From a virus, in the IMG/VR virus record IMGVR_UViG_3300045740_000062, positions 1-45,546 of that record: 45,546 nt of DNA, one strand, 5' to 3'. Below the pieces are notes generated by a model, which made no database searches, was not told the DNA's origin, and was given only the letters and a program-made list of their open reading frames with translations. The translations under genes and the position numbers were made by a program. This document shows positions 27,201-45,546 of this stretch, in pieces. Numbering within the stretch: the stretch's first letter is position 1; each line of letters begins with the position of its first letter.

Positions 27201-27775
27201 AGCAACTGGCCACCGACCGCTATCGCGCCAACAGCACGGAGATTGCCAAATTGTTGGGGCAAGTTACAGGCAAAGCAGGTGTCTCTGCCATCCAGATTGA
27301 CTACTTGATCCGTGGCTACTTCGGTGGTTTGGGTATTGCCATAGTGCAGATGGCCAACCCAATACTGGCGGCGGATCAGAAAGAGATCGCCCAACCCTCG
27401 ACCAAGCCCAGCAAACTGCCGTTCATTGGCGGTCTGTTCCAGCCTGTCGAAGGTCGGGGCACATTGGACGAAGCCTACGACCGCATGCAAGAGATCAGGC
27501 AGATCAAAGGCACGTTCAACCGCCTACGCGAAGACGGCAAAACCGCCGAAGCCCAAGCGTTTGCCCAGACCTATGCCAACGATCTGGCGCAAGCCTCAGT
27601 CTCTGGGTCGGTGCAAAAACGGTTGGGCGAACTGGCCAAGCAAGAGCGCATCATCAAGGCTGATCCAAAACTGACCACCGAGCAAAAAGACGAGCGGCTG
27701 GAACGGCTTGACCAGATCAAGATACGCTACGCCCGCCAGTTCTTGGCGATCAGCGATAGAACCACACGCCCATAA
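21224..27775 (+). CDS. Giant internal-virion-type protein with HELIGH metallopeptidase motif
   Basis: A protein of 2183 residues. The ATG at 21224 is preferred over one 26 codons upstream because the product then opens MVDYVKLPDGSLFPRNEGESYGDAVRAAYAKYPEAFGG, a common opening of very large phage proteins, and because the upstream ATG lies in a hairpin. Residues about 130-175 are a Gly-zipper hydrophobic region (GARLGAMAGSAIAPGVGTVAGGVLGAG) able to insert in membranes. Residues about 325-1000 are charged coiled coil. IAHELIGHYGVD puts a zinc-protease HExxH at residues 1188-1193. Further on are TYVPYYRV, AYAVRQIIRDPLNAW and a helical SMQMLSVMIPFFNAQIQG region typical of polyvalent phage proteins. 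It is the likely ejected protein that opens a path through the cell envelope. Confidence 0.72.
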   Translation: MVDYVKLPDGSLFPRNEGESYGDAVRAAYAKYPEAFGGEPVAQQKKSGVTGALGLGLESLASSFRTAAGAITDPEQAAREALVRQQALGEKYAEPTSLERVKKAYEEQGLLSAAKEVASQIPTAIAEQAPQLGTMFGGARLGAMAGSAIAPGVGTVAGGVLGAGAALLPQFFGSNIERQAAEQAKRGEPIDINRGTALGAAAGQAALEAAGTAFTLGGRLVSKLTKIPEEALLLGKGNAQKLADERLRDVILKGTGRGFAAELPVEIAQQMAERAQAGLSLTDADALTEYGQTAYQVGLLSPLGIAGRVSDRAGAREEVARTKAEEAARAAQEAEAAKSTPEALTKLYDNFTQLQQRRDALNAQLEKLKPAKGATEEQRQAYQTAKAERDTFMREEFVPVAQEYSKRKGAIEKMMAERQSALETAVEQPTAKLPLPSDLPEAKPFQLSPTARLMDDFDRIRAQHDQITTKLAEGPDLDTQATLNEQRRQLEARMAELAPAIEERGGITDTQADFEKKMKEADKQRLKLLAEGDFDGADKVAARIKDMQARLPFFQELASARATPQGETQNLFAEAPAPVKTEAQLEQERQTREEEKATAAYMRGETLAPVEAKAAQVIQPKQLETVEKARTQAATANQELATAAKTKDTDAIYAALDKVNQAENATSRAQADVGRPTLKPAIIDIFDPANIIRNAIQNGDTKLLSDMAAHSDRTALTQALDKNTDERTRLINVLESKLDLAGTKRERADLFSQIYDSKQQAQFKNGTFLDKRLQDIYDKGGPAAVESEWVADKVEPLMKKVTTPQGNAKKSLYQQLVETAAEHAEAVAQLESGIATPTMREKTAALQAKLGKGEAPAERPMNESEKYQLQRRITALENKYKMIEGKVTPIRDEILKTYSSLYKTVPLEKPSVAKAKERAEAEAEARKPKAKSRTASVAARLARGDVRPEAESSPEMRKLAMDLGEQAPEYEKFSADMLKRAKALEAKYGKNDPAVTTFRLNMADELKAKALALGKKTPEYKATLKEQIAYLQEVFPTAGKQEVPTKRTGAVTRKQSAAPSRLVTSSPESRATSEAEALRERRRLFKDFEEAIASEKTAYRFGEKELEQVIDPAEAQKVIDGLKLPENVKFVYAATPGQIPVRILRQIQKDGVDPTTNMMQGAVFRDGTVLVVGDQHANIKDLEETIAHELIGHYGVDTVIGLNRLQEYANNTDVLKLAEQVGGSKLQAEVKATMDAMRDQGEPESVQKLQGIRELIAHTEEVRMSEGFRDRAKRWLKELIGMVREGLRSMGLKNYAEASASDVFYMLRASRRAFASGQIGPYRGADGRTAFRLKREPSSSVVATEPSFADKFLGNVMGLAGRVQFVDQYAALDAAIKKGLTEGQITSLEAVNAQYLMRFAQQRSQYAGQFLTNGPLKLELTRKDGITTSLFRSTKGVNMIDVANALNEAKLANSTEQENMFTVYLAGERAKRVGWEKLNFSDSAKAKAEYDSIVARLDADPKAKAAFEKAKKLYQEYNAGLLDFLVETGVMTPGKAAELKAITYVPYYRVNKNGEVQLMIDRETPVRISNIKDEPQLQALVGGNEQIMPVFTSAVQNTFMIANMGLRNQTVKETSFLLQKLGVASRVAPGKGPANANVVRFKKNGADYYALIDTDLYGIPADLIVKGMEGIKTTTPAIVRLMGLPANVLRKFVTRMPAYAVRQIIRDPLNAWLTTGTDATPVLSSMKELATMVAGRNETEKKLMETGAISSNVFSGDEQDMAKFLKDISAGKSLWDKTMAKADAFAMQGDAATRAVIYKDSIAKGMSEQEALLRTLESMNFSRRGVSPSMQMLSVMIPFFNAQIQGLDVIYRAFKGDMPFSEQLKIKEKMMARGLLMAMGTLAYAALMSDDEAYKRAKPEERFANWFVYVPGVSEPVRVPIPFELGFLFKALPEAVYGMAANDEKGGKTLSGLGKLLGQTNPFSLPQAVKPITEVVLGKSFFQGDIESAREKEQLATDRYRANSTEIAKLLGQVTGKAGVSAIQIDYLIRGYFGGLGIAIVQMANPILAADQKEIAQPSTKPSKLPFIGGLFQPVEGRGTLDEAYDRMQEIRQIKGTFNRLREDGKTAEAQAFAQTYANDLAQASVSGSVQKRLGELAKQERIIKADPKLTTEQKDERLERLDQIKIRYARQFLAISDRTTRP

Positions 27776-27894: not shown

Positions 27895-30864
27895 TTACTG
27901 ACGGATTGCCACGGGAATAATCGGCTGTAGGATGGCATCGTCCATCTCGCTGACTCGGCGGCTGATCTTGATGGCTGACACCCGCATGGGTGGGCCATCG
28001 GTCTTGGCCAGCATATCTTTGCGCTGGATGTGGGACACGGCAAACATCTCTGAAATTTGCTTGGTGAAGGTGGCGTAACTGAAACTCATGGTCGAGCAGT
28101 ACGACCTGAGCAACCGCTCCTCGATGTAGAAGTCGATCTGGCCGACCACTACGCCATGTTCCACCCGCCCCATGACCTCGGACTTGGTGGTGTTCTTGCC
28201 CACCAGCGACCCGTCGCTGAACGCCGCCCCGACACCCGCCGACTCGCCATAGCGCACCACGACCAGTTTGCCTTGGTACTCTTGGATGTAGGCGTTCAGG
28301 ACATCTTCTGCCGTGCGCTTGCCGCTCACGATGCTGGCACGCTGGCTGACAAAAATCCCCCGCAGAACCTCGATGATTTCCTTGAGCGGGATGTCCACCA
28401 GCCCCGAGTGCTGGCTGTTGAAGAGGATGCCAGCGGCGATGATCGTGCCAGCCCCAACCATCCAGAACCGCTCGTCGTTGGGCGCTTTGAACTCGGTGTA
28501 CATCTGCGCCACAGTCTTGGGCACAAGGCCGCGCAGTTGGTCGATGTTGTCCACCATGTACTGCACCAGCACATCGCCAGCCACGGCGTAGTTGTTCTGC
28601 AAAGACTTGATGATCTCGATCTCGTCAGCGTCCCACTCCAGTTTCTCGTCCATCGCCATCTCGATCAGGCGGCGCAGTTCACCCTCGGATGAGTGCAGAC
28701 GGGTGCTGGTCATATAGTCAACGGCAGGGCGGTTGGACGACATTAGGGCAAACGATGCCCATGTGGACAGGTTCAGGCGCTCACGGTTGGTGCCTGACTC
28801 CATGCGTTCCTTGCCACGCCCCTCGGACATGCTGAACAGAAAGGCGGGGAACCACTCGAAGTCTGTGCGGTTGTTGGTGGTGATCTCGTCCGTGATCAGG
28901 GGCATACTACGTAGTAACCCTAACCTCTGTTGCATGGCCACCGCCGATGTGCCAGACCCTGTGCGGTAGTGGATTGGGTGCCCCCAGATCGAGGCGGCGG
29001 CATCTAAGGCTAGGGATTTACCCGTACCCGACTCCGCCGATGTGGCGTGCATAGTCACACCAAAGAGGCCCGTGAAGCGCATGAGCGGCGCGGCGGCACC
29101 GGCCAGCAGAACGGTCAAGTGCTTCCACATCTTGCGCCTGATCATCATCTGGATGACCCTGCGCCATGCGTCCAGATCGCCTGTGGGCTTGGTGTTGGCC
29201 ACGATGTTCTCAAGCCCGGGCATCGGCACCACCACTGGGTCGGCCTTGGGGCTGTATATACATCCAGCAAACACGAACGAGTCGTCGTCTTGCCAGCCGT
29301 AGGATGAGGGGATTTTGATGGGGTTCTTCTCGATGCTCAGTTTCTCGATGCTGGCGCGGACATAGGCGTACAGGTTGTTGTCATTACCGGCACCAAACGC
29401 GGCCATGATGTTCTGGCTGGCCAGATATTTGATCGTCTCGTCCTTGCTGGCCACGCACTTTTGGGGGAGCAGAACTTCTTGGACTTGCTTGCCGCGCACG
29501 GCCAGCATGTGGACTTCGTGGGTTCCGGCGTTGCTGAGAATCTCGACTGGGAAGAGGTCGTATGCCAACAGCATCAGGTGTTGTTTGACCGAGTTGCCCT
29601 GATCGTCGGTGGTGTCCTTCTCAATGAATACTCCACCTTGACGCCCGTATGCGAAACCTTTGGGGGGTTCGGGGCGTAGCATCTTGTGGGGCTGTGCGCT
29701 CTGTGGGGTTTGGACTTCGATCTCCACTTCCTGTGTGACTGCCGCCAACTCCCGTCCCCAGAGCAGTGGGTTGGTGATCTTTCCACGGTGAGGGCAGTTG
29801 CCACACACTCCCGGGTTTGCATCGTTCATCGCCTCGCATGAATACGGCCCCTTGATCTCGTGCAATTTCTGATACATCCGATCATGGCTGTACGGGTGCA
29901 TGTCACTGAGCCAGATGGCGGCTTTCTCGCCGTCTTCGCACACCTTTGTCCAACTCAGCAAGCCACGCCACAGCGGCTCCATCCCATCATCGGATGCGTT
30001 CTCGGCGTAGTATGCCAGTTGTCCGCAACCGTTGCCGTTTTTGGTTCGCATGACGATTGGTTTGAACTTGGTCACGCTGTTGCCGATGATGGCCTGTGCC
30101 GTGGGAGAAAGAGAAGTGACACTAGTTGGCCGCACCCCGGCCAGAGCCAAGGACGAAGAGGGGGGCTTCTTTACAAACTCTTTACCGAACCCCTGTGCGG
30201 TCAGGACAGCATCAATGTCGTCCACGGCGAAGCGATCCCCCGCTGACATGAACCTGACACGGGTTGCCCCACGCACAGCCTTGCCGTTCTTGATGCCGGT
30301 ATTGGTCGAGTCGAACACCCGCAGAACCCGAGACGCATCGCCTGTCACGGCGGCATCGATCTTCAGGCCCTTGGCAAAGCACATCTCTTTGAAGCGTTGC
30401 GCCAGCGGGTACCAGTCTTCCTTGAACAGCATCTGATCCAGCGGCCAGTAGGCATGCACCCCACCGCCAGAGTGGACGAGCCACGGGTCGCCAAGGGCAG
30501 ATAGCCCGGTGTCTTCGCAAAACTTTACAAGAGCGTGCATCGCCGCCTTGGCGCTCGGGTACGACTTGGCCTTGATCTCGCCTTCTTCGTTGGGGATGTC
30601 CTTGGGGTGGTTGCAGTCAAGGTCTACCGCCAGCACTTGACTGGCGTGCATGTTGGGCTTGGTTCGGTCTTTGTTGGTGCCGAATGTGCCCAGCGCGAAG
30701 TATGTGTCGTAGTTTTTTGCCGCCCACTTCTCAACGGTGGGCATGATCTCCTCAAGGGTTTCCCCAAAGACGTGTTGTTTTTTCTTTGTTGTCAGTTCGA
30801 CCGCGCAGTAGTATCCATTACCCGGCGACGGCAAAACCTCCGCTAGAAACTCAAGCGGTGTCAT
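27895..30864 (-). CDS. AEP primase fused to a DUF927-like/superfamily 3-type helicase
   Basis: A protein of 989 residues with an AAGGACAACC ribosome site. The N-terminal part carries archaeo-eukaryotic primase marks: VLAVDLDCN with Asp81 and Asp83, HSGGGVHAYW with His131 and His137, and DASRVLRVFDSTNTG near residue 176. A Cys group follows at about residues 345-365 (C-x9-C-x2-C in NPGVCGNCPHRG). The C-terminal part is an ATPase: SAESGTGKS with Lys616 as Walker A and MPLITDE with Asp659-Glu660 as Walker B, then a sensor-like SNRPAVDYM. It would prime and unwind DNA at the fork, working with the family A polymerase. It is the last gene of the minus arm. No separate primase or helicase of T7 type was found. 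Confidence 0.86.
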   Translation of the reverse strand: MTPLEFLAEVLPSPGNGYYCAVELTTKKKQHVFGETLEEIMPTVEKWAAKNYDTYFALGTFGTNKDRTKPNMHASQVLAVDLDCNHPKDIPNEEGEIKAKSYPSAKAAMHALVKFCEDTGLSALGDPWLVHSGGGVHAYWPLDQMLFKEDWYPLAQRFKEMCFAKGLKIDAAVTGDASRVLRVFDSTNTGIKNGKAVRGATRVRFMSAGDRFAVDDIDAVLTAQGFGKEFVKKPPSSSLALAGVRPTSVTSLSPTAQAIIGNSVTKFKPIVMRTKNGNGCGQLAYYAENASDDGMEPLWRGLLSWTKVCEDGEKAAIWLSDMHPYSHDRMYQKLHEIKGPYSCEAMNDANPGVCGNCPHRGKITNPLLWGRELAAVTQEVEIEVQTPQSAQPHKMLRPEPPKGFAYGRQGGVFIEKDTTDDQGNSVKQHLMLLAYDLFPVEILSNAGTHEVHMLAVRGKQVQEVLLPQKCVASKDETIKYLASQNIMAAFGAGNDNNLYAYVRASIEKLSIEKNPIKIPSSYGWQDDDSFVFAGCIYSPKADPVVVPMPGLENIVANTKPTGDLDAWRRVIQMMIRRKMWKHLTVLLAGAAAPLMRFTGLFGVTMHATSAESGTGKSLALDAAASIWGHPIHYRTGSGTSAVAMQQRLGLLRSMPLITDEITTNNRTDFEWFPAFLFSMSEGRGKERMESGTNRERLNLSTWASFALMSSNRPAVDYMTSTRLHSSEGELRRLIEMAMDEKLEWDADEIEIIKSLQNNYAVAGDVLVQYMVDNIDQLRGLVPKTVAQMYTEFKAPNDERFWMVGAGTIIAAGILFNSQHSGLVDIPLKEIIEVLRGIFVSQRASIVSGKRTAEDVLNAYIQEYQGKLVVVRYGESAGVGAAFSDGSLVGKNTTKSEVMGRVEHGVVVGQIDFYIEERLLRSYCSTMSFSYATFTKQISEMFAVSHIQRKDMLAKTDGPPMRVSAIKISRRVSEMDDAILQPIIPVAIRQ

Positions 30865-30878
30865 GGTTGTCCTTCGGG

Positions 30879-31052
30879 TCAGTGGGGGATGTGCTCGGAG
30901 AGGTCGGTGACTGTGCCTTTGAGTTCGGCGTTTTCGTCAATCAGTTTGGCGATGCGACTGCACAACTCCAGCACCAGCGGGTTGTCGTGCTCAATGTAGG
31001 CTTGGCGGATCAACTCTTCGTCCGTCATGTTGGCAAATTGTACTCGTGACAT
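30879..31052 (-). CDS. Small acidic hypothetical protein
   Basis: A protein of 57 residues (MSRVQFANMTDEELIRQAYIEHDNPLVLELCSRIAKLIDEN...). The ATG at 31052 is chosen because GGAG lies nine bases before it; another ATG four codons upstream is possible. The sequence is a two-helix type, with TDEELIRQAYIEHDNPLVLEL and ELCSRIAKLIDENAELKG as probable amphipathic helices and a possible short coiled coil. It overlaps the upstream HTH gene by 28 bases and precedes the primase-helicase gene by 14 bases. Function is unknown. Small proteins of this kind are common among phage replication genes. Confidence 0.6.
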   Translation of the reverse strand: MSRVQFANMTDEELIRQAYIEHDNPLVLELCSRIAKLIDENAELKGTVTDLSEHIPH

Positions 31053-31303
31053 ATTTTTCTCCATGCCTCGTCGGCGGTGCGCGAGGACTTCATGATCAGC
31101 AACATCAGTTCGACACGGTTCTGGTAGGCGACAAAGACATCTTTGCCAACGAACCAGTTGTACACGGTCTGGCGGGTGACACCAAGCGCCTTGGCAATCT
31201 TGGTGACAGGAAAGTCGAGATGGATCGCCCATCGACCCAACTGGTTGCCCGGGGTCTTAGGTGCGGCCAGCACGGCGTCAATTGTTTTTTGTGAATAGGC
31301 CAT
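31025..31303 (-). CDS. HTH DNA-binding protein
   Basis: A protein of 92 residues. Residues about 31-52 (FPVTKIAKALGVTRQTVYNWF) are a clear helix-turn-helix: a first helix, a Gly-Val turn and a recognition helix with TRQTVYNW, close in style to transposase-like and Cro-like HTH regions. The remaining C-terminal part (VAYQNRVELMLLIMKSSRTADEAWRKICHEY) is helical and could dimerise. It has no nuclease or ATPase motif, so a transcription regulator or a DNA-binding replication accessory is most likely. It is preceded by an 88-base non-coding leader, one of the longer ones in this arm, which may be where its own control sits. Confidence 0.75.
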   Translation of the reverse strand: MAYSQKTIDAVLAAPKTPGNQLGRWAIHLDFPVTKIAKALGVTRQTVYNWFVGKDVFVAYQNRVELMLLIMKSSRTADEAWRKICHEYNLPT

Positions 31304-31336
31304 GGTTGTTTTGGGTGGGGGTACTCGCTACACGGG

Positions 31337-31351
31337 GCCCAGATACCGGGC
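31337..31351 (-). other. Small hairpin in the leader of the HTH gene
   Basis: The 88-base gap 31304-31391 has no gene. Within it a six-pair stem with one G-T pair and a three-base loop can form (GCCC...GGGC). It has no T-run and no clear promoter hexamers around it. It might be an operator or an mRNA structure before the HTH gene, but the support is weak. Confidence 0.25.
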
Positions 31352-31391
31352 AGGTTTCCTTTGACCGAATCCGCTTTCCCCCCGATTCTCC

Positions 31392-31607
31392 TTATTTTTT
31401 AGTCGCCAACAAAGCGCAGGTGACTTTCTCTGCTTCCGATTGGTCGTACAAGGCACACGCCGCCACCATCGGGTCAGCGCCGTTCTTTACGGCTTCTGCC
31501 CACTTGTCACGGCGATCCATATTGCCCACTGTACATGACCCAATCATCGACAGAAACACTGCGACTGTGGCCCAGAGAAAATGACGATTGTCGATTTCAT
31601 CGAACAT
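31392..31607 (-). CDS. Small membrane protein
   Basis: A protein of 71 residues. The ATG at 31607 (MFDEIDNRHFLW) is preferred over a TTG four codons upstream because GAGGTG lies just before it. Residues about 10-26 (LWATVAVFLSMIGSCTV) form one transmembrane or signal-anchor helix; the following SCTVGN could be read as a lipobox-like C but lacks the usual L-x-x-C form. The rest is soluble (NMDRRDKWAEAVKNGADPMVAACALYDQSEAEKVTCALLATKK) with two Cys that could pair. It starts nine bases after the stop of the ssDNA-binding-like gene. No family is recognised. Confidence 0.6.
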   Translation of the reverse strand: MFDEIDNRHFLWATVAVFLSMIGSCTVGNMDRRDKWAEAVKNGADPMVAACALYDQSEAEKVTCALLATKK

Positions 31608-31615
31608 GGCGCACC

Positions 31616-32584
31616 TCAACCTTCGTCGTCCCAGTCAGCCACGATGTCGGCCAACTTTGACTTCTTGGGAGGCACGGCGTTGGGCTTCTCACCACCCTTG
31701 CGCACCTCGGGTTCACCGCCTTCGTCCTCGGCCTCGACCTTGGCTTTCGCCTTGGCCTTGGGAGGCGGCGGGGCTTCTTCCTCTTCTTCAGTCTCGACCT
31801 TGGGCGCGGCCTTGGTGGGCTTGCCCGGAATCGCCAGTTCAGTCTTGGGCTTGACACCATCGGCTTGCGCAACCGTCATGGTCACGGCACGCTTGGCATC
31901 TTCGCTGTCGGCTTGCTTCTGAACAATGTCGTACTCGTCTTCTTCCAACCAGCGCACGGGCGTGAAGAACAGTTTGGGCGCTTCGGCCTTCGTGTCGAAC
32001 TTCATGCGGGTGATGATCTGCTCGGGGTTGACAGGCGGGGTCTGCACCGCAAGGAAGCGGGCATAGGCTTGCAAGGGGCGCTTGTCGCCATCTTCTTTCC
32101 CAAAGATGCTCGTGGCAGGGAGTGTCAGTTGCAACACATCACCTTCGAGGTTGTTGGCCAGAGCCACAGCAAGGCGCTGTTGGAAGCGGCAGGCACGGCT
32201 GTTGCCGTTGCCCGAGCCTGCTTCGTTCTGGGGGCAACCCATGCAGGTTTTGTGTTGGGGTGTCTTGATGGAAGCATCGGGCCTCTCACCGTCGTTGCTC
32301 CAGCAGTCGGGGCCGCTGATGCGCTCGGGGTCGTAGGCACCTTCATAGAAGATACGGCTGACTTTGGGCGCGGCTTTGACGATGACGACATCAAGATGGC
32401 GGTCATCAATCGAGGCAATCTCTTTGCCGCCAGCGACGAGTCGGAAGACCCCGCCTTTGATAGAGATGCGCTTGACCGAAGAACCAGTACCGCCGCCGGT
32501 CAAGGCTTTGGCGGTATCAGACAACTCGTTGTTACGAGCGAAGGCGGGAACATTGGATGACGAAAAAAGCGTGATATTGCTCAT
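31616..32584 (-). CDS. Probable ssDNA-binding protein with a Cys4 cluster and acidic tail
   Basis: A protein of 322 residues; the ATG at 32584 is preferred over a GTG four codons upstream. Residues 35-90 are strand-rich (VKRISIKGGVFRLVAGGKEI, HLDVVIVKAAP), residues 94-132 hold four Cys (C94, C114, C117, C132) that could bind zinc, and residues 195-230 are again strands. From about 245 the chain is a low-complexity Pro/Lys/Glu region that ends in IVADWDDEG, like the acidic tip by which ssDNA-binding proteins recruit partners. Lying between replication genes, it is the best candidate for the phage SSB. T4 gp32 also has a zinc site, but I see no direct similarity. Confidence in the role is moderate. 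Confidence 0.6.
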   Translation of the reverse strand: MSNITLFSSSNVPAFARNNELSDTAKALTGGGTGSSVKRISIKGGVFRLVAGGKEIASIDDRHLDVVIVKAAPKVSRIFYEGAYDPERISGPDCWSNDGERPDASIKTPQHKTCMGCPQNEAGSGNGNSRACRFQQRLAVALANNLEGDVLQLTLPATSIFGKEDGDKRPLQAYARFLAVQTPPVNPEQIITRMKFDTKAEAPKLFFTPVRWLEEDEYDIVQKQADSEDAKRAVTMTVAQADGVKPKTELAIPGKPTKAAPKVETEEEEEAPPPPKAKAKAKVEAEDEGGEPEVRKGGEKPNAVPPKKSKLADIVADWDDEG

Positions 32585-32592
32585 GGTTAAAC

Positions 32593-33003
32593 TCACTTTG
32601 ACTTGGTTACACGAATGTCGAACTCGGTGTGCGAGTTCAGTCCCGGCGGGACTGCGCCGGGGTTCTCTTCCAGAAAGGTCGCCATGTTTGACTGGCTGAT
32701 GCGCTTCTCCAGCAAATCGACGACCTCATGTTCAAGAATAAACTTCTTGAACGAGTCCCAGTCGTTCGTGTTGTAGCGCGTCTTGGTCATCAATGAGACC
32801 GTTCCGTAAGATGTGTTCACAGACTTCAGCCCCAAGGCTTTCATCTGATCCTTGATGGCAAACCGCACTTCGTCTTGCTGTGCCTTGAGTGCTTCCACTT
32901 TCGTGTCGTACTCTTTGGTCAGCGCCTCGATCTGCGATTTGATCTTGGTGTGGATTTTGACGAGACGATCAATTGGTATCGCCTCAACTTCAGTATCTTC
33001 CAT
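32593..33003 (-). CDS. Coiled-coil replication/recombination accessory protein
   Basis: A protein of 136 residues starting at the ATG directly after the recurrent AGGAGAAAGCAA leader. Residues about 10-60 are a charged coiled coil (RLVKIHTKIKSQIEALTKEYDTKVEALKAQQDEVRFAIKDQMKALG). The second half, SVNTSYGTVSLMTKTRYNTNDWDSFKKFILEHEVVDLLEKRISQSNMATFLEENPGAVPPGLNS, is a compact domain that recurs beside phage recombination genes and resembles in style Gp157 or Gam-like nuclease inhibitors. That resemblance is an impression only. It is encoded between the SNF2 helicase and the ssDNA-binding-like protein, so it probably acts on DNA ends or forks. Confidence 0.6.
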   Translation of the reverse strand: MEDTEVEAIPIDRLVKIHTKIKSQIEALTKEYDTKVEALKAQQDEVRFAIKDQMKALGLKSVNTSYGTVSLMTKTRYNTNDWDSFKKFILEHEVVDLLEKRISQSNMATFLEENPGAVPPGLNSHTEFDIRVTKSK

Positions 33004-33024
33004 TTGCTTTCTCCTGTTGTGTTT

Positions 33025-33044
33025 GTCTAGAGTTAGACAGTCTA
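33025..33044 (-). promoter_or_regulatory. Operator-like alternating repeat with weak promoter match
   Basis: The pentamer GTCTA and its complement TAGAC alternate three times (33025-33029, 33034-33038, 33040-33044), giving two overlapping inverted repeats in the 70-base gap upstream of the coiled-coil gene. On the minus strand the last copy overlaps TAGACT, which lies 16 bases after TTGCAG (33061-33066), a poor but possible sigma70 pair. The arrangement suggests a repressor site over a promoter. Confidence 0.42.
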
Positions 33045-33073
33045 CCCGAAAAATAAATCTCTGCAACCCCCTT

Positions 33074-34633
33074 TCAAGAATTTATTTCAGCCTCAAACAT
33101 TGCTGTCAGAAGATCGTTGTCATCGACCTTGGCCGTCAGCGCCTTAAACATTTTGCGTTCAATTGGAGAACTCTGGATATGCACCACAGTCACCTTGTCA
33201 CTGTTCTGCCCCTTGCGGTCAGCGCGTGCAATACATTGGATGTACTGCTCAACAGACATCAGTGGGCCGTAGAACACCACGGTGTCAGCGGCGGTTAGGG
33301 TAATCCCGTGTGCAGTGGCTTGCGGTTGCATCACCAGTATGCGTGGGTCTGGCGTGTTCTGGAATCGCTGGATGATGTCGGCGCGTTTGGTTGCGCTCAC
33401 AGCGCCGTGGATGACCTCGGCAGTAATGCCGCGTTTGATCAGGTGCGCATGAATGGTGTCGATGCTTGAGCGGAACATGGCAAAGATGATGACCTTGCGC
33501 TCAGTCTCTTCAAGAATTTCCTCCAGCACATTCAAGCGTGGGCTGGCATCGAACTCGACCACTTCCTTGTCGTCGTTGTAGGCGGCACCACAACTGATCT
33601 GCAAGAGTTTGCTCACCACAGTAGCGGCGTTGACCGCTGTGATGGTTGTCCCTGCGGCGCTCACCAACATCTGTTCTTTGAGCAGGGTGTAGTACTTGTT
33701 CTGTTGCGGTGTCAACGGTATCTCGCGGGTCAGCGTCATGACTGGCGGCAAGTCCAAGCACTGCTCTTTGGTGAACCTGATGGCGGGTTGCAAGGCATTG
33801 AACACCTGCTCACGCGCATCCTTCTTTGGCATCCACTTGAACATGGTGGCCTTGTACATGACCTGATCGCGCCATGCGGTGAAGAACTTCGGTACACCAT
33901 CTGGGTTAACAAGTTTGGCCAAGCCAAACGCATCGGCAGGTGACTGCGATGCGGGTGTGCCCGTCATCATCCAGAGGTACGTGTTGGCACCGATGATTGC
34001 CTTCAGCGTCTTCCATCGCTTTGTGGTGGCGGTCTTGTAGGCGTTGGCCTCATCAATGATCACCAGATCGAAGCGCCCGTCATTCTTGATCTCGTCTGCG
34101 ATCAGGTTCAAGCCTTCGTAGTTGCACACCACGAACTCGTAGTCAGACTGAATCATCTCGATGCGCTTGGCGGCTTGCGGGTGGTGTGCGACGATGGCCG
34201 AGCGGTGGATGATGGAGTTGTTCAAGTCAGACATCCACGCCGAGTGCATGATCGACAGTGGGCACAGGATGAGCACACGGCGCACCAGACCGCGGGTCAT
34301 CAAGTAGTCAGCCGCCCACAGTGCCGATAGTGTCTTGCCAGTGCCGGGGTCGTTAAAGACGAAGGCACGTTTGTTGAGCGTGAGGAAGGCGGCAGTATCG
34401 ACTTGGTGAGCCATGGGCTTGTAGCGCCCCGGCCAGTTGTAGCGGCGTGTGATGGGCGAGGGCACATCCTTAACGCCGAGGTTGCGAAGCACTCTCGCTT
34501 CATCTAAGCCCCAGTACACGGCGATCTTGTAGGTGTCGCCTTCTTGCTCAATGATCTTGTGCTTGGGGATGATGCTGTACTTGTCGGGGTTGCGTGTGCG
34601 AAAGACAACCGCCTTGTCTTCTAGGATTTCCAA
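33074..34633 (-). CDS. SNF2-family (superfamily 2) DNA helicase
   Basis: A protein of 519 residues starting at TTG after AGGAGAAAGCATT, the same leader as other genes here; no ATG fits. The N-terminal RecA lobe has Walker A FNDPGTGKT with Lys100, VLILCPLSIMHSAW, and the Walker B box VIIDEAN (Asp194-Asn197), so DEAN replaces DEAH. MMTGTPASQSPADAF is motif III. The C-terminal lobe has KVIIFAMFRSSID, HGAVSATKRADIIQRF, and QYIQCIARADRKGQ as motif VI with its two arginines. SNF2 proteins in phages are thought to remodel protein-DNA complexes or forks. It lies between the small DNA-metabolism genes and the coiled-coil protein, within the replication operon. Confidence 0.93.
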   Translation of the reverse strand: MEILEDKAVVFRTRNPDKYSIIPKHKIIEQEGDTYKIAVYWGLDEARVLRNLGVKDVPSPITRRYNWPGRYKPMAHQVDTAAFLTLNKRAFVFNDPGTGKTLSALWAADYLMTRGLVRRVLILCPLSIMHSAWMSDLNNSIIHRSAIVAHHPQAAKRIEMIQSDYEFVVCNYEGLNLIADEIKNDGRFDLVIIDEANAYKTATTKRWKTLKAIIGANTYLWMMTGTPASQSPADAFGLAKLVNPDGVPKFFTAWRDQVMYKATMFKWMPKKDAREQVFNALQPAIRFTKEQCLDLPPVMTLTREIPLTPQQNKYYTLLKEQMLVSAAGTTITAVNAATVVSKLLQISCGAAYNDDKEVVEFDASPRLNVLEEILEETERKVIIFAMFRSSIDTIHAHLIKRGITAEVIHGAVSATKRADIIQRFQNTPDPRILVMQPQATAHGITLTAADTVVFYGPLMSVEQYIQCIARADRKGQNSDKVTVVHIQSSPIERKMFKALTAKVDDNDLLTAMFEAEINS

Positions 34634-34651
34634 AATGCTTTCTCCTGTGTT

Positions 34652-34897
34652 TTAGAAGTTTTCTGCGAAGAACTTACCCACTGCGTTATCGAACTTTTGC
34701 AGATCAAAATCGCCGCCTTCTCCGTGGTGTGACATGATGGTGATACGGTCGCCAAACCGTGCCATGTTGAAGGTAGGAAGCGCCAGTATGTTGACTCGGT
34801 TCTTCTGCGCTTCCTCCCAAACAAACCTTGCGTTGTTGATGCCGATTAGTTTTTGCTCGGCATCGCTGATGGTGTTCCACCATTCTTCAAATGTCAT
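34652..34897 (-). CDS. Conserved small phage protein (MTFEEWW type)
   Basis: A protein of 81 residues with an AGGAGACAACAA leader. It opens MTFEEWWNTISDAEQKLIGINNARFVWEEAQKNRV and ends FDLQKFDNAVGKFFAENF. The WW pair and the helical start are characteristic of a small protein I have seen beside replication genes in environmental phages, with no assigned role. A central strand (DRITIMSHHGEGG) holds two His. It overlaps the HNH gene by four bases at its start, so it is coupled to that gene's translation. No catalytic motif is obvious. Confidence 0.68.
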   Translation of the reverse strand: MTFEEWWNTISDAEQKLIGINNARFVWEEAQKNRVNILALPTFNMARFGDRITIMSHHGEGGDFDLQKFDNAVGKFFAENF

Positions 34898-35118
34898 TTG
34901 TTGTCTCCTCTGTTGGATGAACGAGAACGCAAACGGGTGTTACCCGGCGTTGACTTGCCGCCTTTGCGCATGGGCACCACATGGTCGATGTCTTTGCCCT
35001 TGCGCTCGATGCCTTTCTTGTCATAAGCACGCCGAGCCTTCTGCCGCTCGATCTGATCTTTGTCCTCGCCGCGCTTCTTTTGAAGTTGATACTCGTGCTT
35101 CCAGTCTCTGGTTGCCAT
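34894..35118 (-). CDS. HNH-type nuclease, minimal
   Basis: A protein of 74 residues. The first 40 are a very basic helix region (WKHEYQLQKKRGEDKDQIERQKARRAYDKKG). Residues 43-72 match the HNH beta-beta-alpha-metal core: DIDHVVPMRKGGKSTPGNTRLRSRSSNRG, with Asp45-His46, Asn60 and Asn69 as the H, N and third (here N) positions. It lacks the structural Cys pairs of larger HNH enzymes. Stand-alone HNH proteins of this size in phages may nick DNA, assist packaging or resolve branches. It is encoded two bases from the RecB-like nuclease gene, which suggests joint action in DNA processing. Confidence 0.8.
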   Translation of the reverse strand: MATRDWKHEYQLQKKRGEDKDQIERQKARRAYDKKGIERKGKDIDHVVPMRKGGKSTPGNTRLRSRSSNRGDNK

Positions 35119-35120
35119 GA

Positions 35121-35792
35121 TTAGTTCCTTCTCGGTTTGTGATGTTCACATGTCTTGACCGGGCACCACCCGCACAGTGGTGTCGGCTTGGGGTTCCACA
35201 CCCCAGTCTCGTGCGCTTGTTCGATGCGGGCAACGCGCTCCCGATAGTCCCACCAATACTCTTCGGCTTCGCCCACCATGAAACTGGCCTTGGCGATGTC
35301 GTTCTTGACCACAAAGAGCAGAGCACCAGACACCCGACGGATGTGCGGGAAGTGCGCAAACACCATGAGCGCCATGAGTTTCAACTGCTCTCGGTCGGGG
35401 TACTTGTTGTTGCCTGACTTGTAGTCCACGACTTTGGCCGTCAGGTTATCGTCGTCAATGATGAGCAAGTCAGCGATGCCGCGCACCCACACATCTTTGT
35501 CGAGGAACCCGCAAGGCTTCAAGTCTTTGGTCACGCCCATCTTGTACTCGCAGAGTTTGCGCCCGGGCTTGGCCTTCAACGCGTCGAGGGTGTCTTGGAG
35601 AAAGGCAAACTGCGGGGGCAGTGGCGTATCGTCCTTGATGTAGTCCTCTGCCGCCGTGTGCAGTTCCTTGCCGTAGATGGTCGCCTCGGTGTCGGTGAAC
35701 GGGTGGTTCTTGAGCACCTTGACTTCGTAGTACCGACGGGGACAGCCCTCATAGTCTTTGAGGGCTGAGTGGCTCCAAGTCACATTTTTCAA
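35121..35792 (-). CDS. RecB/Cas4-like PD-(D/E)xK exonuclease with an iron-sulphur Cys set
   Basis: A protein of 223 residues. The frame is open upstream inside the previous gene, but the TTG at 35792, one base after that gene's stop and seven bases after GAGG, gives MKNVTWSHSALKDYEGCPRRYYE; a GTG three codons later is an alternative. Catalytic residues are His45 (YGKELHTAAE), Asp108 (GIADLLII) and Asp123/Lys125 (VVDYKSG), in RecB-nuclease order. Cys17 and Cys207, Cys210, Cys215 (CGWCPVKTC) occupy the four positions that hold the 4Fe-4S cluster in Cas4 and AddB. It would trim DNA ends for recombination. No CRISPR array or other cas gene is in the window. Confidence 0.87.
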   Translation of the reverse strand: MKNVTWSHSALKDYEGCPRRYYEVKVLKNHPFTDTEATIYGKELHTAAEDYIKDDTPLPPQFAFLQDTLDALKAKPGRKLCEYKMGVTKDLKPCGFLDKDVWVRGIADLLIIDDDNLTAKVVDYKSGNNKYPDREQLKLMALMVFAHFPHIRRVSGALLFVVKNDIAKASFMVGEAEEYWWDYRERVARIEQAHETGVWNPKPTPLCGWCPVKTCEHHKPRRN

Positions 35793-35793
35793 T

Positions 35794-36102
35794 TCAAAAC
35801 CTCGCTGTTCGGATCGCCGCTGACAGGCGGCTGGCAAACTCTTCGACGAACGACTCACGGTTGTTGAGTTGGTGTTCGCCCATACTGTGCAGTATGGCAT
35901 GGGTCAACTCGTGCCAGAAGGTTTCCTCCAGTGCCGACAAGCGAAACGGCACACCATGGTGCGACCGCTTGGCCAACTCGATGCGTTGCTCGTCGTAGTA
36001 GACGCGCCCCATCTCGCTTCGGTTCTTCATGGACTCGACCACATCCACGCTGTACCATCGGGTGCCAACCCGTATTTTCTTCGGCAGTTTTAGTGTCTTC
36101 AT
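35794..36102 (-). CDS. Minimal HExxH zinc metallopeptidase-like protein
   Basis: A protein of 102 residues starting at the ATG after the recurrent AGGAGAAAGCAA leader. Residues about 10-45 form strands (KIRVGTRWYSVDVVESMKN, MGRVYYDEQRIELAKR), then the active helix LEETFWHELTHAILHSMGE places His64, Glu65 and His68 as the metal and catalytic residues. A downstream Glu at 83, 87 or 88 (NRESFVEEFASRL) would be the third ligand. This matches the SprT/ImmA-like small protease plan, here without an HTH domain. Its target could be a host repressor or a virion precursor; the sequence does not say. Its stop lies one base before the TTG of the next gene. Confidence 0.82.
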   Translation of the reverse strand: MKTLKLPKKIRVGTRWYSVDVVESMKNRSEMGRVYYDEQRIELAKRSHHGVPFRLSALEETFWHELTHAILHSMGEHQLNNRESFVEEFASRLSAAIRTARF

Positions 36103-36121
36103 TTGCTTTCTCCTTTCAATT
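36100..36121 (-). repeat. Duplicated gene junction, copy 1 (copy 2 at 38377-38398)
   Basis: These 22 bases are identical to 38377-38398. Each copy contains, in minus-strand order, the TGA stop of one gene, a 13-base spacer with AAGGAGAAAGCAA and the ATG of the next gene... read on the transcript, the copy runs from the downstream gene's end to the upstream gene's start. The identity of a whole junction suggests copying of the translation-start cassette rather than chance. Shorter matches occur before several other genes of this arm. Confidence 0.7.
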
Positions 36122-38077
36122 TTTGGCCAAGCCGTAGCGTCGGTGAGCGCCAACTTCTGAGTTGAGCGGTATCCCCGGCAAATACTTCGGCTCCTGAACC
36201 ATCTGTTCCCATACCCACACTTTTGCTTCTTCAACTTCGTCGTTTGGAACGACTGCGATCAACTCGTCGTGGACTGTGCCAGCCACGAAATAACGTTTGT
36301 TCACGCGCAACATACCATCGGTCATCACAATCCGAGCAACTGCCTGAACGATGTTGTTGGTGATCTTACCAGCGTAGAGTTTGGTGGGCGTTGCGCCCTC
36401 CACGCCGTAGACCCAACCGTCCTTTTCTTTGCGCAGATTGGGGTACCGGATCGACATGCCATTGGGCAATACGATCTCCTCCTTTTTGAAGGTGATACAT
36501 TTATACACCAACTCGTCGCCCCCCGCAAGGCATGTCTCCAACGCCCGCCCGCACATGTCCCAGAACGACACCACGGGGTGCGAAGTCATGCGGTAAATGT
36601 CTATGATCTTCTTGGCGGCGATAGCGTGAATCAATAGTTCCCGGTCGGTACAGGTGTGGGGAATGGCTTCGAGTTTCTTTACATTCTCGTCCCACGACAG
36701 GAAGCGGTCGATGTAGTCGGAGGTCACGCCCAGTTTCTTAGCAAAGTCTTTTGTGTAAAGAACCGGCGGTGCGCCAAGGAAACCCACCAGCAACTGGGCG
36801 GCAAAGGACGCCCATCCCAACCCGTAGCCACACCCGAGCAAAGCCGACTTGGCTGACTGGCGAAGGTCTGGGTGGGTTTCTTTCGTGAGGCCGGGGATGT
36901 TGAACATCTGCGCACCGAACGCGGCATAAGCGTCAGCGCCAGAGCGGAAGATGTCGAGGAGGTCTTGGTAATCTGCAAACCACGCGAGAACTCGTGGCTC
37001 AATCTGCGATAGATCGCCCACGACGAGTTGGTGCCCATCGGGAGCCATAATTGCTTTGCGCAGGAATGACCCGCGCTTGAGGTTTTGCATGTTGATGGCT
37101 GACCCTTTGGCCGCTGTCCATCGTCCTGAGAGAGCGCCGTAATAACTAAGAGGAACCGGAAGTGCTCCGCGTTCCGAAATGTCAAGGAACCGTTGGGCGC
37201 GGGTGCGCTCGGTTGTTGACTTAACTTTAAGGCGTGCCTCGCAAAGGAGGGCAACATCTTCTCGTTCACCGTTGAGTAGCGCCTGAAAAAGGGCATCATT
37301 TTTGGCAAGCGCCAGTGTTTGTTTACCGGTTGTTTTGCTGGTCTTGTACGGGGGAGTAACCCCCATGCTCTGAAGTATGTTTGCAAACTGTTGATTCGAC
37401 GCCAGCGAAGACTCGTCCACGCCCAACTGTTTGAGTAGTCCATCTCGCTTTGTCCTTTCATCATCCAGCGCAACGATTAGCATCTCTTGGTCGAGTTCCA
37501 AGCACGCCTGCGTGTACATCTTCAGGGTCATGTCGATCAGGCGCAACTCTGATGCGGGGTAGCCTTGGCTCAGTCGATGGAAAATTCTCTCGCACAGATA
37601 TACGTCGTGCTTGCAATAGTCTGCAAGTTCAGATTCCACGTCTTCGTCCAACTCGGACAGACCGTCTGTCGAATGTACGGCTTGCCCTTTGGCGGGAAGA
37701 TCAAAATCTGCCGCAAGTTTGGCGAGACTATTGCCAACCTCCACGCCGCGAAGAGCACGCGCCATCGATAGGGAGTCGAAGATGAAGCAGGGGGTAACGC
37801 CGTACCGCCACGATAGTATTGAAACATCGAACTGTGCGTTGTGGGCAAGCACTGCGGTTCGGCTCCAGTCCACTCCATCGAAGTATTCAGGTAGGTCGCG
37901 TCCTCCAATCCACTGAATCGGGTCATCACTTCCATACTCGTGGGTGCAACACCCAAATGCTTTGAATCGAGAATCACGGATGTACTCCTCAGTTGTCATC
38001 TTCGAGAGCGTGTAGTCTGACTTGTCCCATCTGGTTTCAAAGTCAATGGTTAGTATGCGGTCATAGGGTCTGCTCAT
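36116..38077 (-). CDS. polA: Family A DNA polymerase with 3'-5' exonuclease
   Basis: A protein of 653 residues starting at an ATG that overlaps the stop of the upstream gene (ATGA). The exonuclease domain has LTIDFETRW (Asp12, Glu14), HNAQFDVSIL and YCKHDVYLC. The polymerase domain has motif A GDLSQIEPRVLAWFA (Asp355), motif B RQSAKSALLGCGYG (Arg406, Lys410, Tyr418) and motif C VHDELIAV (His603, Asp604, Glu605). Aligned on R-x3-K-x7-Y-G, the residue matching Phe762 of E. coli Pol I is Leu414. There is no 5' nuclease domain. It is the phage replicative polymerase, acting with the AEP primase-helicase. The gene is the longest in the middle of the operon. Confidence 0.95.
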   Translation of the reverse strand: MSRPYDRILTIDFETRWDKSDYTLSKMTTEEYIRDSRFKAFGCCTHEYGSDDPIQWIGGRDLPEYFDGVDWSRTAVLAHNAQFDVSILSWRYGVTPCFIFDSLSMARALRGVEVGNSLAKLAADFDLPAKGQAVHSTDGLSELDEDVESELADYCKHDVYLCERIFHRLSQGYPASELRLIDMTLKMYTQACLELDQEMLIVALDDERTKRDGLLKQLGVDESSLASNQQFANILQSMGVTPPYKTSKTTGKQTLALAKNDALFQALLNGEREDVALLCEARLKVKSTTERTRAQRFLDISERGALPVPLSYYGALSGRWTAAKGSAINMQNLKRGSFLRKAIMAPDGHQLVVGDLSQIEPRVLAWFADYQDLLDIFRSGADAYAAFGAQMFNIPGLTKETHPDLRQSAKSALLGCGYGLGWASFAAQLLVGFLGAPPVLYTKDFAKKLGVTSDYIDRFLSWDENVKKLEAIPHTCTDRELLIHAIAAKKIIDIYRMTSHPVVSFWDMCGRALETCLAGGDELVYKCITFKKEEIVLPNGMSIRYPNLRKEKDGWVYGVEGATPTKLYAGKITNNIVQAVARIVMTDGMLRVNKRYFVAGTVHDELIAVVPNDEVEEAKVWVWEQMVQEPKYLPGIPLNSEVGAHRRYGLAKN

Positions 38078-38379
38078 GCATGGCCCCGCTTCTTGAGTTG
38101 CTCGACCATGCACTCGGCAATCTCGAACGCCTCTTCAGCAACCAACTCGCCCCATGTGTACTTGCCGCCATCCTCTTTGCCAAGGTCGATCTGCGCCTGC
38201 ACCCCAGAATAAACGCTGTGGGTGAAAATTTCATCGTCTACTTCATAGGGGTTGTCTCTGCCATTGTTCAGGTGCGTGGCTTGGTTGCGGTTGGTGGCGG
38301 CCTCAGTCACGGCTCTGGCCTGAATCATGGCCTGCATGGCGGCGATGGCCGCTTGTTTCAAAAAGTCAATGTCGCTCAT
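38074..38379 (-). CDS. Hypothetical early protein upstream of DNA polymerase
   Basis: A protein of 101 residues after the recurrent AGGAGAAAGCAA leader. It starts with a helical, Ala-rich segment (FLKQAAIAAMQAMIQARAVTEAATNRNQATH), then a short acidic middle (NPYEVDDEIFTHSVYSGVQAQIDLGKEDGGKYTWGELVAEEAFEIAECMVEQLKKRGHA). The pattern KYTWGELVAEEAFE and the terminal helix are suggestive of a small conserved phage protein with unknown role. Its stop overlaps the polymerase start, so its translation is coupled to that of the polymerase. No catalytic motif is visible. Confidence 0.65.
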   Translation of the reverse strand: MSDIDFLKQAAIAAMQAMIQARAVTEAATNRNQATHLNNGRDNPYEVDDEIFTHSVYSGVQAQIDLGKEDGGKYTWGELVAEEAFEIAECMVEQLKKRGHA

Positions 38380-42813: not shown

Positions 42814-43094
42814 TTGCGTTTTCCTTTCTTCTTCACATCAAAGAACCCCAACCACTTCGCACCCTCGACTTGGGGCTGGAAGAAGTTGATGTCATAGGCG
42901 GCATCGTGGGGCAGGGGCACGAGGTATAAGTTATACCCATGCCCAAACCCATCCATGATCTTCATCACCTCACGCAAGTCACGCTCAGGCGTGGACAAGC
43001 ACCAGTCTTGCACGCTTGCGGCAAAGAAATGTTGATTGGCAGTAGCGGCTTGCTTCTTGGCGTAGCCGGTCATTTGGATTGTTTCACTCATCAT
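42810..43094 (-). CDS. Hypothetical protein
   Basis: A protein of 94 residues from ATGATG, overlapping the stop of the peptidase gene; either ATG is possible. It reads in part TGYAKKQAATANQHFFAASVQDWCLSTPERDLREVMKIMDGFGHGYNLYLVPLPHDAAYDINFFQPQVEGAKWLGFFDVKKKGKRK. A helix with ERDLREVMKIMD is followed by strands (YNLYLVPLP, YDINFFQPQV) and a basic end. The block YNLYLVPLP..A.YDINFFQPQVEGA recurs in small phage proteins I have seen, without known role. It is the third gene from the right edge and is coupled to the peptidase gene. Confidence 0.66.
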   Translation of the reverse strand: MMSETIQMTGYAKKQAATANQHFFAASVQDWCLSTPERDLREVMKIMDGFGHGYNLYLVPLPHDAAYDINFFQPQVEGAKWLGFFDVKKKGKRK

Positions 43095-44212
43095 GCATAC
43101 TCCTTATAAACAAGATCAAACAAAGTCGCCAGCGCAGTGCCAGCGTCCAACTGGTGCGTTAACTCCAATGCCTCGGTCAGCACACTGGGGTCACGCAACT
43201 TCTTCTTATTGATAAATCGTTTCGCCTGCTCAGGGTCTTCGGGGTACACCGACTCGGCCATCAGGTCAATGAGCCAGCCATCGTAGCCAGCCATGGCGTC
43301 ATAGATTGCTTCTTCGACCTCGATGCGTTCGTCATCATCGGGGAAATGCTCATAAAAACCAGAAGAAGAGTTGACATTAGTCGAAGAGAGCGCACCGAGG
43401 GTTGTCCACCCCTTGTTGTAGTGGCTATCCCAGTCGTTCATCTCCTGCACGCTGGGGTCGCGGTCAGTGGGCAGGGTATCCCAATCAATCTGAACAACCC
43501 GCTCGGCAAGCGCGGTGTAATGGTGGATGTCAAGGTTCTCGTTCTGCGTGTGCTCAGAATAGTAGCCCACGCTGATGTTTGTACACTCGGGGATGATGTC
43601 AGTGAACTCGGCAGTATCGGTGTACACACCTGTGTTGTCGGGCAGATACATCAACCGCTCGTCTTGGTTCAGGGCATCAGACAGCGCATCAGCGAACACA
43701 TCAGAACAGCACCGACCCCAGCCTTGGTGGGTGATCACTGAGTCGATACCCCTGCGGTCGAATGCCACAGCCCTATCAAAGTTTTTTAATAATTCCACAT
43801 GGTGTTTGGCCAAGTGCTTGGCACCGACACCACCGCACTCCTCACCCTGAGAGAAGATGTAATAACCGGGAGTGTTTGAATGTAAGAGGTGCATCAGCAT
43901 CGCACACCCTGCGCCATCATCGGCACCGAGCGGGGCGCCGTTGGCGAACCATTTGCCATGCGCCTTGATGAACTTGTTCGGGCCATCTTCGTGGTGGACA
44001 GTATCGACATGGGCGATAAAGAGAGTGCGGTGGTGGGTAGATGTGCGGTTGTCCACATGGATATTGCCTGCGGCGTCGATGGTTAAGTCAAGGTGTGCAG
44101 GGATGTGGTCACACAGCCAGCCAGTGAACATCATCGCACCCTCGCCACCATCGGGGCGCTTGAGTGACAGGGCACGGCACAGGGTCTTGTAGAGAATTGA
44201 TTTCTTGTTCAT
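43091..44212 (-). CDS. M20-type zinc peptidase (PepT-like)
   Basis: A protein of 373 residues. The two-metal aminopeptidase/tripeptidase signature is complete: FIAHVDTVH with His68 and Asp70, PLGADDGAG with Asp98/Asp99, FSQGEECGG with Glu124 (base) and Glu125, FDRRG with Asp152, and SVGYYSEHTQNENLDI with His221. Residues about 240-373 are an acidic addition (SVQEMNDWDSHYNKGW, FPDDDERIEVEEAIYDAM) with no clear lid domain, so the full M20 dimer domain seems missing. The ribosome site GAGGAG is formed by the last two codons of the upstream gene, three bases away. It may cut small peptides or amide-linked host compounds; the substrate is unknown. Confidence 0.84.
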   Translation of the reverse strand: MNKKSILYKTLCRALSLKRPDGGEGAMMFTGWLCDHIPAHLDLTIDAAGNIHVDNRTSTHHRTLFIAHVDTVHHEDGPNKFIKAHGKWFANGAPLGADDGAGCAMLMHLLHSNTPGYYIFSQGEECGGVGAKHLAKHHVELLKNFDRAVAFDRRGIDSVITHQGWGRCCSDVFADALSDALNQDERLMYLPDNTGVYTDTAEFTDIIPECTNISVGYYSEHTQNENLDIHHYTALAERVVQIDWDTLPTDRDPSVQEMNDWDSHYNKGWTTLGALSSTNVNSSSGFYEHFPDDDERIEVEEAIYDAMAGYDGWLIDLMAESVYPEDPEQAKRFINKKKLRDPSVLTEALELTHQLDAGTALATLFDLVYKEYA

Positions 44213-44215
44213 GGT

Positions 44216-45546
44216 TTACTCCTCGTTGGGTTCTTCAGTTTCAGGGGCGTGGTCAGGGTGGTACTTCTCGTCATCGATGATGACAGGATCGATCTTGTCC
44301 GAGTAGTAGTTGTCGGTCGCGTGGCACTGCCATGCGTCATCCTTGTGGACATACCCCTCGTCCTCGGTGCAGACACAGTTGTCAGTCAACTCGTATCGGT
44401 CGTTGTACTCGTCAAAGGCTATGCGCTCGTCATCGGTGTGGTACCACTCGTCAGCAGACTCGATATGCACAGCGTTGTCGATGTGCTCGTACTCGCCGTT
44501 CTCTAAACACACGATGTTGTTATTGTCGAGATAGTCCTCGTCATACCACTGGTCTTGCGACTCGACAAACACAGCGTAGGAACTGCGTACATAGTACTCG
44601 GCGCCTCGTCTGCCGATGACATAGGTGAACTCGTGGTCAAGACAGTACTCGCAGACATTGATGTCACTGCCATCAACCCAGTGCAACTCATCCTCGTGGC
44701 AACGCTCACCGCACTCGTCACAAGTTGTGCGGCTACCGCCCGATGGTGTGCCGTCAGTGTTGTCGCACTCGTACTCGCCGTCGCTGTCAAGCACCAAGTA
44801 CTCGCCCACAATGGCCACTTGCCGCTCGTTGCCGTCAATGTATGGGGCAAGGAAGTCGTTGGATGTGGGGTAGTACGCCATCTTCACACCCTCGTGCCAC
44901 TCGCTCTGGTGTCGATACCCCTGCGCCTTGAGCCATGCCTCCAAGTGCTCGTCAGCGTATGAATACCCGCCGTTGGGACAGCGTTTGTATGAGCGCACAA
45001 AATACTTGGTGTCGTCGTCACTGTTGCACAGCGCACGAGCGTCAATCGAGCCAGTCTCCGTCACCCGCACAGCCATGTGCCAGCCATACTTGGGATCGTA
45101 GACTTCATAGGGGTGACGGGCGTGGCCATCAGAACAACGCACATCATCACGCTCACGCCAGCACATACATGAGTATGGGCCGTTGTTGACTGCATGCACC
45201 ATCTCATCAGTCGTGTTCAAAAACCTAAACTCGCTACCAGTAGCGGTGTACTGCGCGGCGATGTCACGGATGATGTGGTCAGAGATGTCGAAGTGTCGGG
45301 CAAGATACTTGCCGATGGTGGTGATGGTCTGCTTGTCTGCGATGCCTGCCCGCTCGTCACGGGTATAGGCGATGCGGCCGGGGTCAGTGACTGCCTTGTG
45401 CGGCCACTCAAGCAACAACTGTTGCCAGTTGTATGGGTCAGCGTGCTCGAAGGCGTTGTGGATAGCAGGGTGCAGGTTGAACCTGCTTGCTAGGTCTCTG
45501 AACCATGGCCGCGAATCGGCCACGATACGGATAGCGGGTTGGAAGA
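44216..45546 (-). CDS. Large acidic protein with zinc ribbon and short Trp/Tyr-Asp repeats (5' end cut)
   Basis: At least 443 residues. A GTG at 45523 is possible, but the frame stays open to the window edge (FQPAIRIVADSRPWF), so the real start is probably outside. Residues about 20-240 (numbering from the GTG) contain a folded region with scattered Cys (YSCMCWRERDDVRC). A zinc ribbon follows: CDECGERCHEDELHWVDGSDINVCEYCLDHEF (two C-x2-C pairs). From about residue 310 on there are about seven units of 15-18 residues with core D-x-[WY]-Y-x-x-D (QDQWYDEDY, ENGEYEHIDN, ADEWYHTDD, NDRYELTD, EGYVHKDD, DNYYSDK, DEKYHPD). Asp and Glu are very frequent throughout. It is the first gene seen in the minus arm. 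I do not recognise a function. Confidence 0.7.
   Translation of the reverse strand, partial: FQPAIRIVADSRPWFRDLASRFNLHPAIHNAFEHADPYNWQQLLLEWPHKAVTDPGRIAYTRDERAGIADKQTITTIGKYLARHFDISDHIIRDIAAQYTATGSEFRFLNTTDEMVHAVNNGPYSCMCWRERDDVRCSDGHARHPYEVYDPKYGWHMAVRVTETGSIDARALCNSDDDTKYFVRSYKRCPNGGYSYADEHLEAWLKAQGYRHQSEWHEGVKMAYYPTSNDFLAPYIDGNERQVAIVGEYLVLDSDGEYECDNTDGTPSGGSRTTCDECGERCHEDELHWVDGSDINVCEYCLDHEFTYVIGRRGAEYYVRSSYAVFVESQDQWYDEDYLDNNNIVCLENGEYEHIDNAVHIESADEWYHTDDERIAFDEYNDRYELTDNCVCTEDEGYVHKDDAWQCHATDNYYSDKIDPVIIDDEKYHPDHAPETEEPNEE

Follow-up and report, generated by a model that had tools for sequence, protein, structure and literature searches.

The ribbon-ladder gene at the end of a 45,546-nucleotide IMG/VR virus record (the window, meaning the whole stretch of DNA analyzed) encodes a protein with a GNAT-like predicted core, a cysteine ribbon and a C-terminal ladder of acidic β-hairpins. 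Its constant neighbor is a gene for a PepT-like zinc peptidase with an intact active site, and the ribbon-ladder gene would be the larger member of a phage cassette of two genes that is probably expressed early. The explanation we favor, to which we give about an even chance, is that the pair forms an early host-directed system that modifies peptide or protein amino groups, in which the ribbon-ladder protein would be the transferase and the peptidase its companion. The gene and its N-terminal region are located as follows.

44216..45546, minus strand: coding sequence of the ribbon-ladder protein; 442 residues are readable, the 5′ end is cut by the record end and the stop is at 44216
45329..45544, minus strand: N-terminal helical region (residues 1–72), from AlphaFold2/DSSP and alignments

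The record is linear and the ribbon-ladder gene runs off its end, with an open reading frame at 44216..45544. The closest relative (L006, 71–72% identity to the window protein) has 454 residues and an AAGGAG start site, so the window protein lacks only about 10 N-terminal residues. The replication genes of the window (DUF927/primase-like, SNF2-type helicase and family A polymerase) lie at 27895–38113 on the minus strand, and a 2209-residue plus-strand ORF occupies 21146–27775 in the virion-gene half. The family A polymerase is about 31% identical to those of 60–64 kb Rhizobium and Pseudomonas phages. This resemblance, together with the location of close relatives of the ribbon-ladder gene on 60–65 kb contigs, indicates that the record is probably a fragment of a larger genome.

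A search with the window protein returned 40 homologous viral contigs. A profile search found relatives encoded in 110 of 148 candidate stretches; the best 80 of the 110 are listed, and this set overlaps with the 40 contigs. Two scans of contigs from bacterial and archaeal genomes found no cellular relatives, and the family therefore looks virus-specific from its sequence distribution. Pfam, NCBIfam, PADLOC, PHROGs and PDB sequence searches gave no significant family for the window protein, which agrees with the original prediction in that ribbon plus ladder could not be matched to a named family. PADLOC matched it to no known anti-phage defence family, and no experiment on any family member was found in the literature. 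In one clade (among others L008–L027, L033 and L036) the ladder is followed by a further C-terminal domain of some 100 residues (TMLTMDML...), which the window protein lacks.

The most conserved region of the protein is the core, which carries the motifs IGKYL, NGPxSCM, HPYxxYDPKYGWHM, ARAL, YFVRSY, WLxxQGY and APYIDG.

44759..45328, minus strand: conserved SCM core with a GNAT-like predicted fold (residues 73–262), from alignments, AlphaFold2 and profile comparison
45164..45172, minus strand: Ser-Cys-Met (residues 125–127), invariant in alignment A3 and likewise invariant in A5, the jumbo-phage alignment

Ser-Cys-Met, Arg-Ala, Asp-Arg-x-Tyr and Pro-Tyr-x-Asp are invariant even in divergent members. 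A minimal jumbo-phage member was modelled separately (pLDDT 90, pTM 0.79), and DSSP assigned it the order β1-α1-α2-β2-β3-β4-α3-β5, which is the GNAT topology. Foldseek comparison of both AlphaFold2 models (pLDDT 88 and 90) with the PDB returned mostly GNAT-superfamily folds (RimI, AAC(3), FemX, L-PGS and ATE1) at E values of 0.002–0.4; neither model had a PDB match at E 1e-3 or better, and TM-scores on the target did not exceed about 0.45. An acyl-CoA loop of the canonical form [QR]xxGx[GA] follows β4 in 0 of 57 window-family proteins and 1 of 89 jumbo-phage SCM proteins, which makes the use of acyl-CoA doubtful. Pfam searches at E ≤ 1 returned no acetyltransferase family. The weak fold scores, the missing CoA loop and the lack of an acetyltransferase profile match are the reasons for calling the core GNAT-like and not filing it as a GNAT member; the models support this predicted fold but do not prove it.

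An amidoligase link was considered and dropped. It came from a BFVD fold match named ‘Amidoligase enzyme’ (E 2.9e-3, rmsd 2.9 over 118 columns), and PF12224 is absent from the window. Across 39 records PF12224 gave one weak match, in a protein that has no ladder, and none over the curated cut-off. A jumbo-phage protein (L218:1447-2835) shows weak Amidoligase_2 similarity, and its tail resembles pentapeptide repeats.

The core is followed by the ribbon and the ladder.

44642..44722, minus strand: zinc ribbon, C275-C278 plus C298-C301, four invariant cysteines
44261..44629, minus strand: acidic hairpin ladder of eight β-hairpins (residues 306–428), from AlphaFold2, motif counts and repeat anchors

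The original prediction described two C-x2-C pairs and, after them, repeated strand-turn-strand units with an acidic face, and this anatomy is solid. The two knuckles, C275-x2-C278 and C298-x2-C301 (residues 275–301), are invariant in a 37-sequence alignment, and the four conserved cysteines suggest that the ribbon binds zinc. The window protein contains 3 copies of the strict motif D-x-aromatic-[aromatic/acidic]-x2-D compared with a mean of 0.21 in composition-matched shuffles (n = 5000), a count reached by 2 of the 5000; a looser form occurs 7 times against a mean of 1.47 and was matched by a single shuffle in 5000. These counts confirm the repeat. Its anchors are W333, Y352, W367, Y384, Y398, Y413 and Y428, spaced 14–19 residues apart. 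AlphaFold2 modelling of the whole protein (37 sequences, mean pLDDT 88) predicts eight consecutive strand-turn-strand hairpins at residues 306–428 with pLDDT 92–95, and 27% of the ladder is Asp plus Glu. Comparison with L006 gave dN of about 0.20 and dS of about 0.65 for the ladder, a purifying constraint comparable to that on the core. Asp residues sit at regular positions in every hairpin turn, as a repeat that binds calcium or another cation in the manner of RTX proteins would have them. This role is extremely unlikely: the window protein lacks the RTX-type Gly-rich nonapeptide, and the best recurrent Pfam resemblance of the family, itself weak and below the cut-off, is to the aromatic hairpins of choline-binding proteins (PF01473; 5 of 30 members, best E 0.0086).

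Profile comparison places the window protein in a phage superfamily with phrog_6980/13313. The window family (A3) aligns with the Autographiviridae proteins of these two groups through the core and ribbon (hhalign E 4.5e-32), and Ser-Cys-Met, RA, RxY, PYxD and the peptidase partner are shared. The jumbo-phage SCM family matches A3 at E 2.5e-5, with the same motif order, and the Autographiviridae family at E 1.4e-6 in profile-profile comparison, where an unrelated control scored 0.42. HMMER with the jumbo-phage SCM profile did not detect the window or Autographiviridae proteins, and the link to the jumbo phages rests on the profile-profile scores, shared motifs and shared partner. Four megaphage genomes (LR756501/LR756503/LR756504 and LR745206) show an unusual expansion, with 7–15 SCM-family and 5–6 peptidase matches each. 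At four loci (L134, L135, L137 and L138) the SCM gene adjoins an HSP70/DnaK-like gene on the opposite strand, with a conserved gene block upstream.

The segment after the core is exchangeable in this superfamily. Motif counting sorted the tails of 89 jumbo-phage SCM proteins into 28 with DnaJ-type CxxCxGxG zinc fingers, 34 short, 6 other and 21 ladder-like, the last being a regex count that includes some short tails that merely satisfy the regex. Members with long C-terminal DnaJ-type zinc-finger arrays at the ladder position include L153, L171, L176, L178, L182 and L184. The ladder alone found no match by tblastn against phages, a single-unit repeat HMM was too weak, and a strict regex recognized few jumbo-phage ladders; a position matrix combined with composition-matched shuffles did work. 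This test located the ladder in 8 SCM tails, including that of Cellulophaga gp37, at scores reached by 0 of 200 shuffles, and the zinc-finger tails behaved as negative controls.

A net charge of -29 over 135 residues of ladder, and a mean of -0.22 per residue in 63 family members, would suit a DNA mimic that acts against restriction or a repressor with the rest of the protein as its carrier domain, and an ArdA-like gene adjoins the homolog in phage Pasto. We consider this reading very unlikely. The charge of ladder-like tails in the superfamily spans about -0.04 to -0.26 per residue without loss of the hairpin pattern, Cys-rich zinc fingers occupy the same position in relatives, PADLOC and Pfam gave no match, and the constant partner is a peptidase. 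Since the ladder can be swapped for zinc fingers and its hairpin pattern is kept better than its charge, it is best read as an exchangeable binding arm rather than a stand-alone DNA mimic. The original prediction is thus partly supported. Its ribbon and ladder stand, but it missed the larger core at residues 73–262 and the peptidase partner. Its proposal that the ladder acts as the functional unit, as a cation binder or a DNA mimic, is not supported: the ladder makes up the C-terminal third of the protein, and conservation is highest in the GNAT-like core. At the ladder position relatives have a ladder of variable charge, DnaJ-like zinc fingers or nothing, and the zinc peptidase is the constant companion of the window family.

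The partner gene lies immediately downstream of the ribbon-ladder gene and carries signals of translational coupling.

43091..44212, minus strand: PepT-like (M20/M28, clan MH) zinc peptidase, phrog_4191, the partner gene with coupling signals
44219..44230, minus strand: C-terminal codons PN-EE of the ribbon-ladder gene, in which GAGGAG is the peptidase Shine-Dalgarno (GAGGAG-TAA-ACC-ATG)

This pairing is solid. The PepT-like peptidase is the next gene in all 62 window-family contig loci; at a few of these the contig stops inside the peptidase gene. The ladder-peptidase pair is also found in Klebsiella, Vibrio, Shigella, Pectobacterium, Bradyrhizobium and Rhizobium phages, and in Cellulophaga phi38:1 and jumbo phages an SCM gene and a peptidase gene are again neighbors, in the opposite order. 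For many jumbo-phage SCM paralogs, the flanking sequence that was retrieved contains no peptidase gene. The peptidase residues H68, D70, D98, E124, E125, D152 and H221, which make up the HxD, D, EE, D, H metal and catalytic set, are invariant in 65 of 65 sequences, and the phage peptidase should therefore be active. A DnaJ-like zinc-finger array is present on the peptidase itself in one megaphage version (L127:3902-6004, 700 residues). The ladder gene of the window ends in GAG GAG before its stop codon, and these two codons form the peptidase Shine-Dalgarno. Of 32 short-gap loci, 30 likewise have a Shine-Dalgarno-like sequence placed in the end of the upstream gene or overlapping it. This overlap explains why many members end in Glu.

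The terminal Glu bears on a LysW-like role, in which the protein would carry an amino acid on its C-terminal Glu for release by the M20-type peptidase, as LysK does with LysW. Two Vibrio phage homologs are annotated ‘biosynthesis protein’, one of them with a LysW note, and an acidic protein with a zinc ribbon, an adjoining M20/M28-type peptidase and a Glu end in many members fits that scheme. The reading was dropped as scarcely credible after three tests failed. Neither LysW (PF21344) nor a LysX/RimK ATP-grasp ligase (PF08443) was matched in 14 records in which the positive controls were detected, the window record among these being a fragment; and the terminal Glu codons are the peptidase Shine-Dalgarno, with members ending in Ile, Thr or Ala. 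The 39-record amidoligase search described above also yielded nothing over its curated cut-off.

The strict coupling of the SCM and peptidase genes could instead mean that the SCM protein is a non-enzymatic regulatory or targeting subunit of the peptidase, with the GNAT-like core a dead scaffold and the arm delivering or blocking peptide substrates. The lost CoA loop fits this proposal, as do array types that swap the way targeting domains do and the zinc-finger array borne by one megaphage peptidase itself. We regard it as unlikely. The invariant Ser-Cys-Met, Arg-Ala, Asp-Arg-x-Tyr and Pro-Tyr-x-Asp resemble an active site more than a scaffold, and the excess of SCM over peptidase matches in the megaphages suggests that many SCM proteins act without a peptidase.

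In the favored transferase-peptidase mechanism, the C-terminal arm of zinc ribbon and acidic aromatic β-hairpins would bind either the partner enzyme or a client, which would be a peptide or a protein. The core would transfer a group to, or take one from, an amino group of the client, and the co-translated PepT-like dizinc aminopeptidase would trim or release the product. By analogy with the phage GNAT Rac, the target may be a host protein. Early expression is supported by phiM1-like phages, in which both genes are among the conserved early ORFs (PMC6115819), and by the small early-type ORFs upstream of the ladder gene in longer relatives. A more specific version, which we judge distinctly unlikely, is a virus-only peptide-tagging cycle in which the transferase adds a residue or acyl group to amino groups, the aminopeptidase removes it and the swappable arms choose the clients. 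Such a transferase would be a GNAT fold without the CoA loop. It might take its group from aminoacyl-tRNA in the manner of FemX and ATE1, or work through a Cys-linked intermediate, and one possibility is that the 7–15 transferase matches per megaphage represent many client specificities.

Early regions of phages contain many proteins without an assigned function. One of them is shown here to be encoded in a conserved pair with an intact zinc peptidase and to have a predicted transferase fold as its core; the pair is maintained in unrelated phages that range from Autographiviridae of 43 kb to megaphages of 600 kb. The proposal offers a concrete, testable activity for hundreds of unannotated genes, including those of cultured Klebsiella, Vibrio and Pectobacterium phages, and the pair suggests enzymatic handling of peptides or protein ends by phages.

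The nearest known proteins are phrog_6980 and phrog_13313 of Drulisvirus, Phimunavirus and related Autographiviridae, of unassigned function, which are homologous to the window protein in the core and ribbon and have the same downstream peptidase, phrog_4191. The window protein differs in its longer ladder and N-terminus and does not match those PHROG profiles directly. The neighboring enzyme resembles PepT-like/M20-M28 aminopeptidases (TIGR01883, PF04389, PF01546; PDB 3gb0) in its full clan MH active site, but it belongs to a phage-specific family with its own C-terminal extension. Choline-binding (PF01473) repeats are, like the ladder, short hairpins with a Trp/Tyr-Tyr pair; the ladder is acidic, not Gly-rich and expected to be intracellular, and its match is below the cut-off. 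The predicted core topology and top fold matches are those of the GNAT superfamily (RimI, Eis-like and AAC(3), and the aminoacyl-tRNA-dependent FemX, L-PGS and ATE1), whereas the weak scores, the missing CoA pyrophosphate loop, the invariant Ser-Cys-Met and a hairpin segment in place of the fourth helix set the SCM core apart. Rac, a GNAT N-acetyltransferase of phiKMV-like phages, has an acetyl-CoA pocket, and the accessible part of its report does not describe a ribbon, ladder or phage peptidase partner (PMC7552054). The first 14 kb of phiKMV has no annotated peptidase. When Rac is expressed, the α subunit of host RNAP is cleaved through proteases that the study does not identify (PMC7552054). 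As a GNAT-like Autographiviridae protein tied to proteolysis, Rac is the nearest experimental precedent for the pair (PMC7552054).
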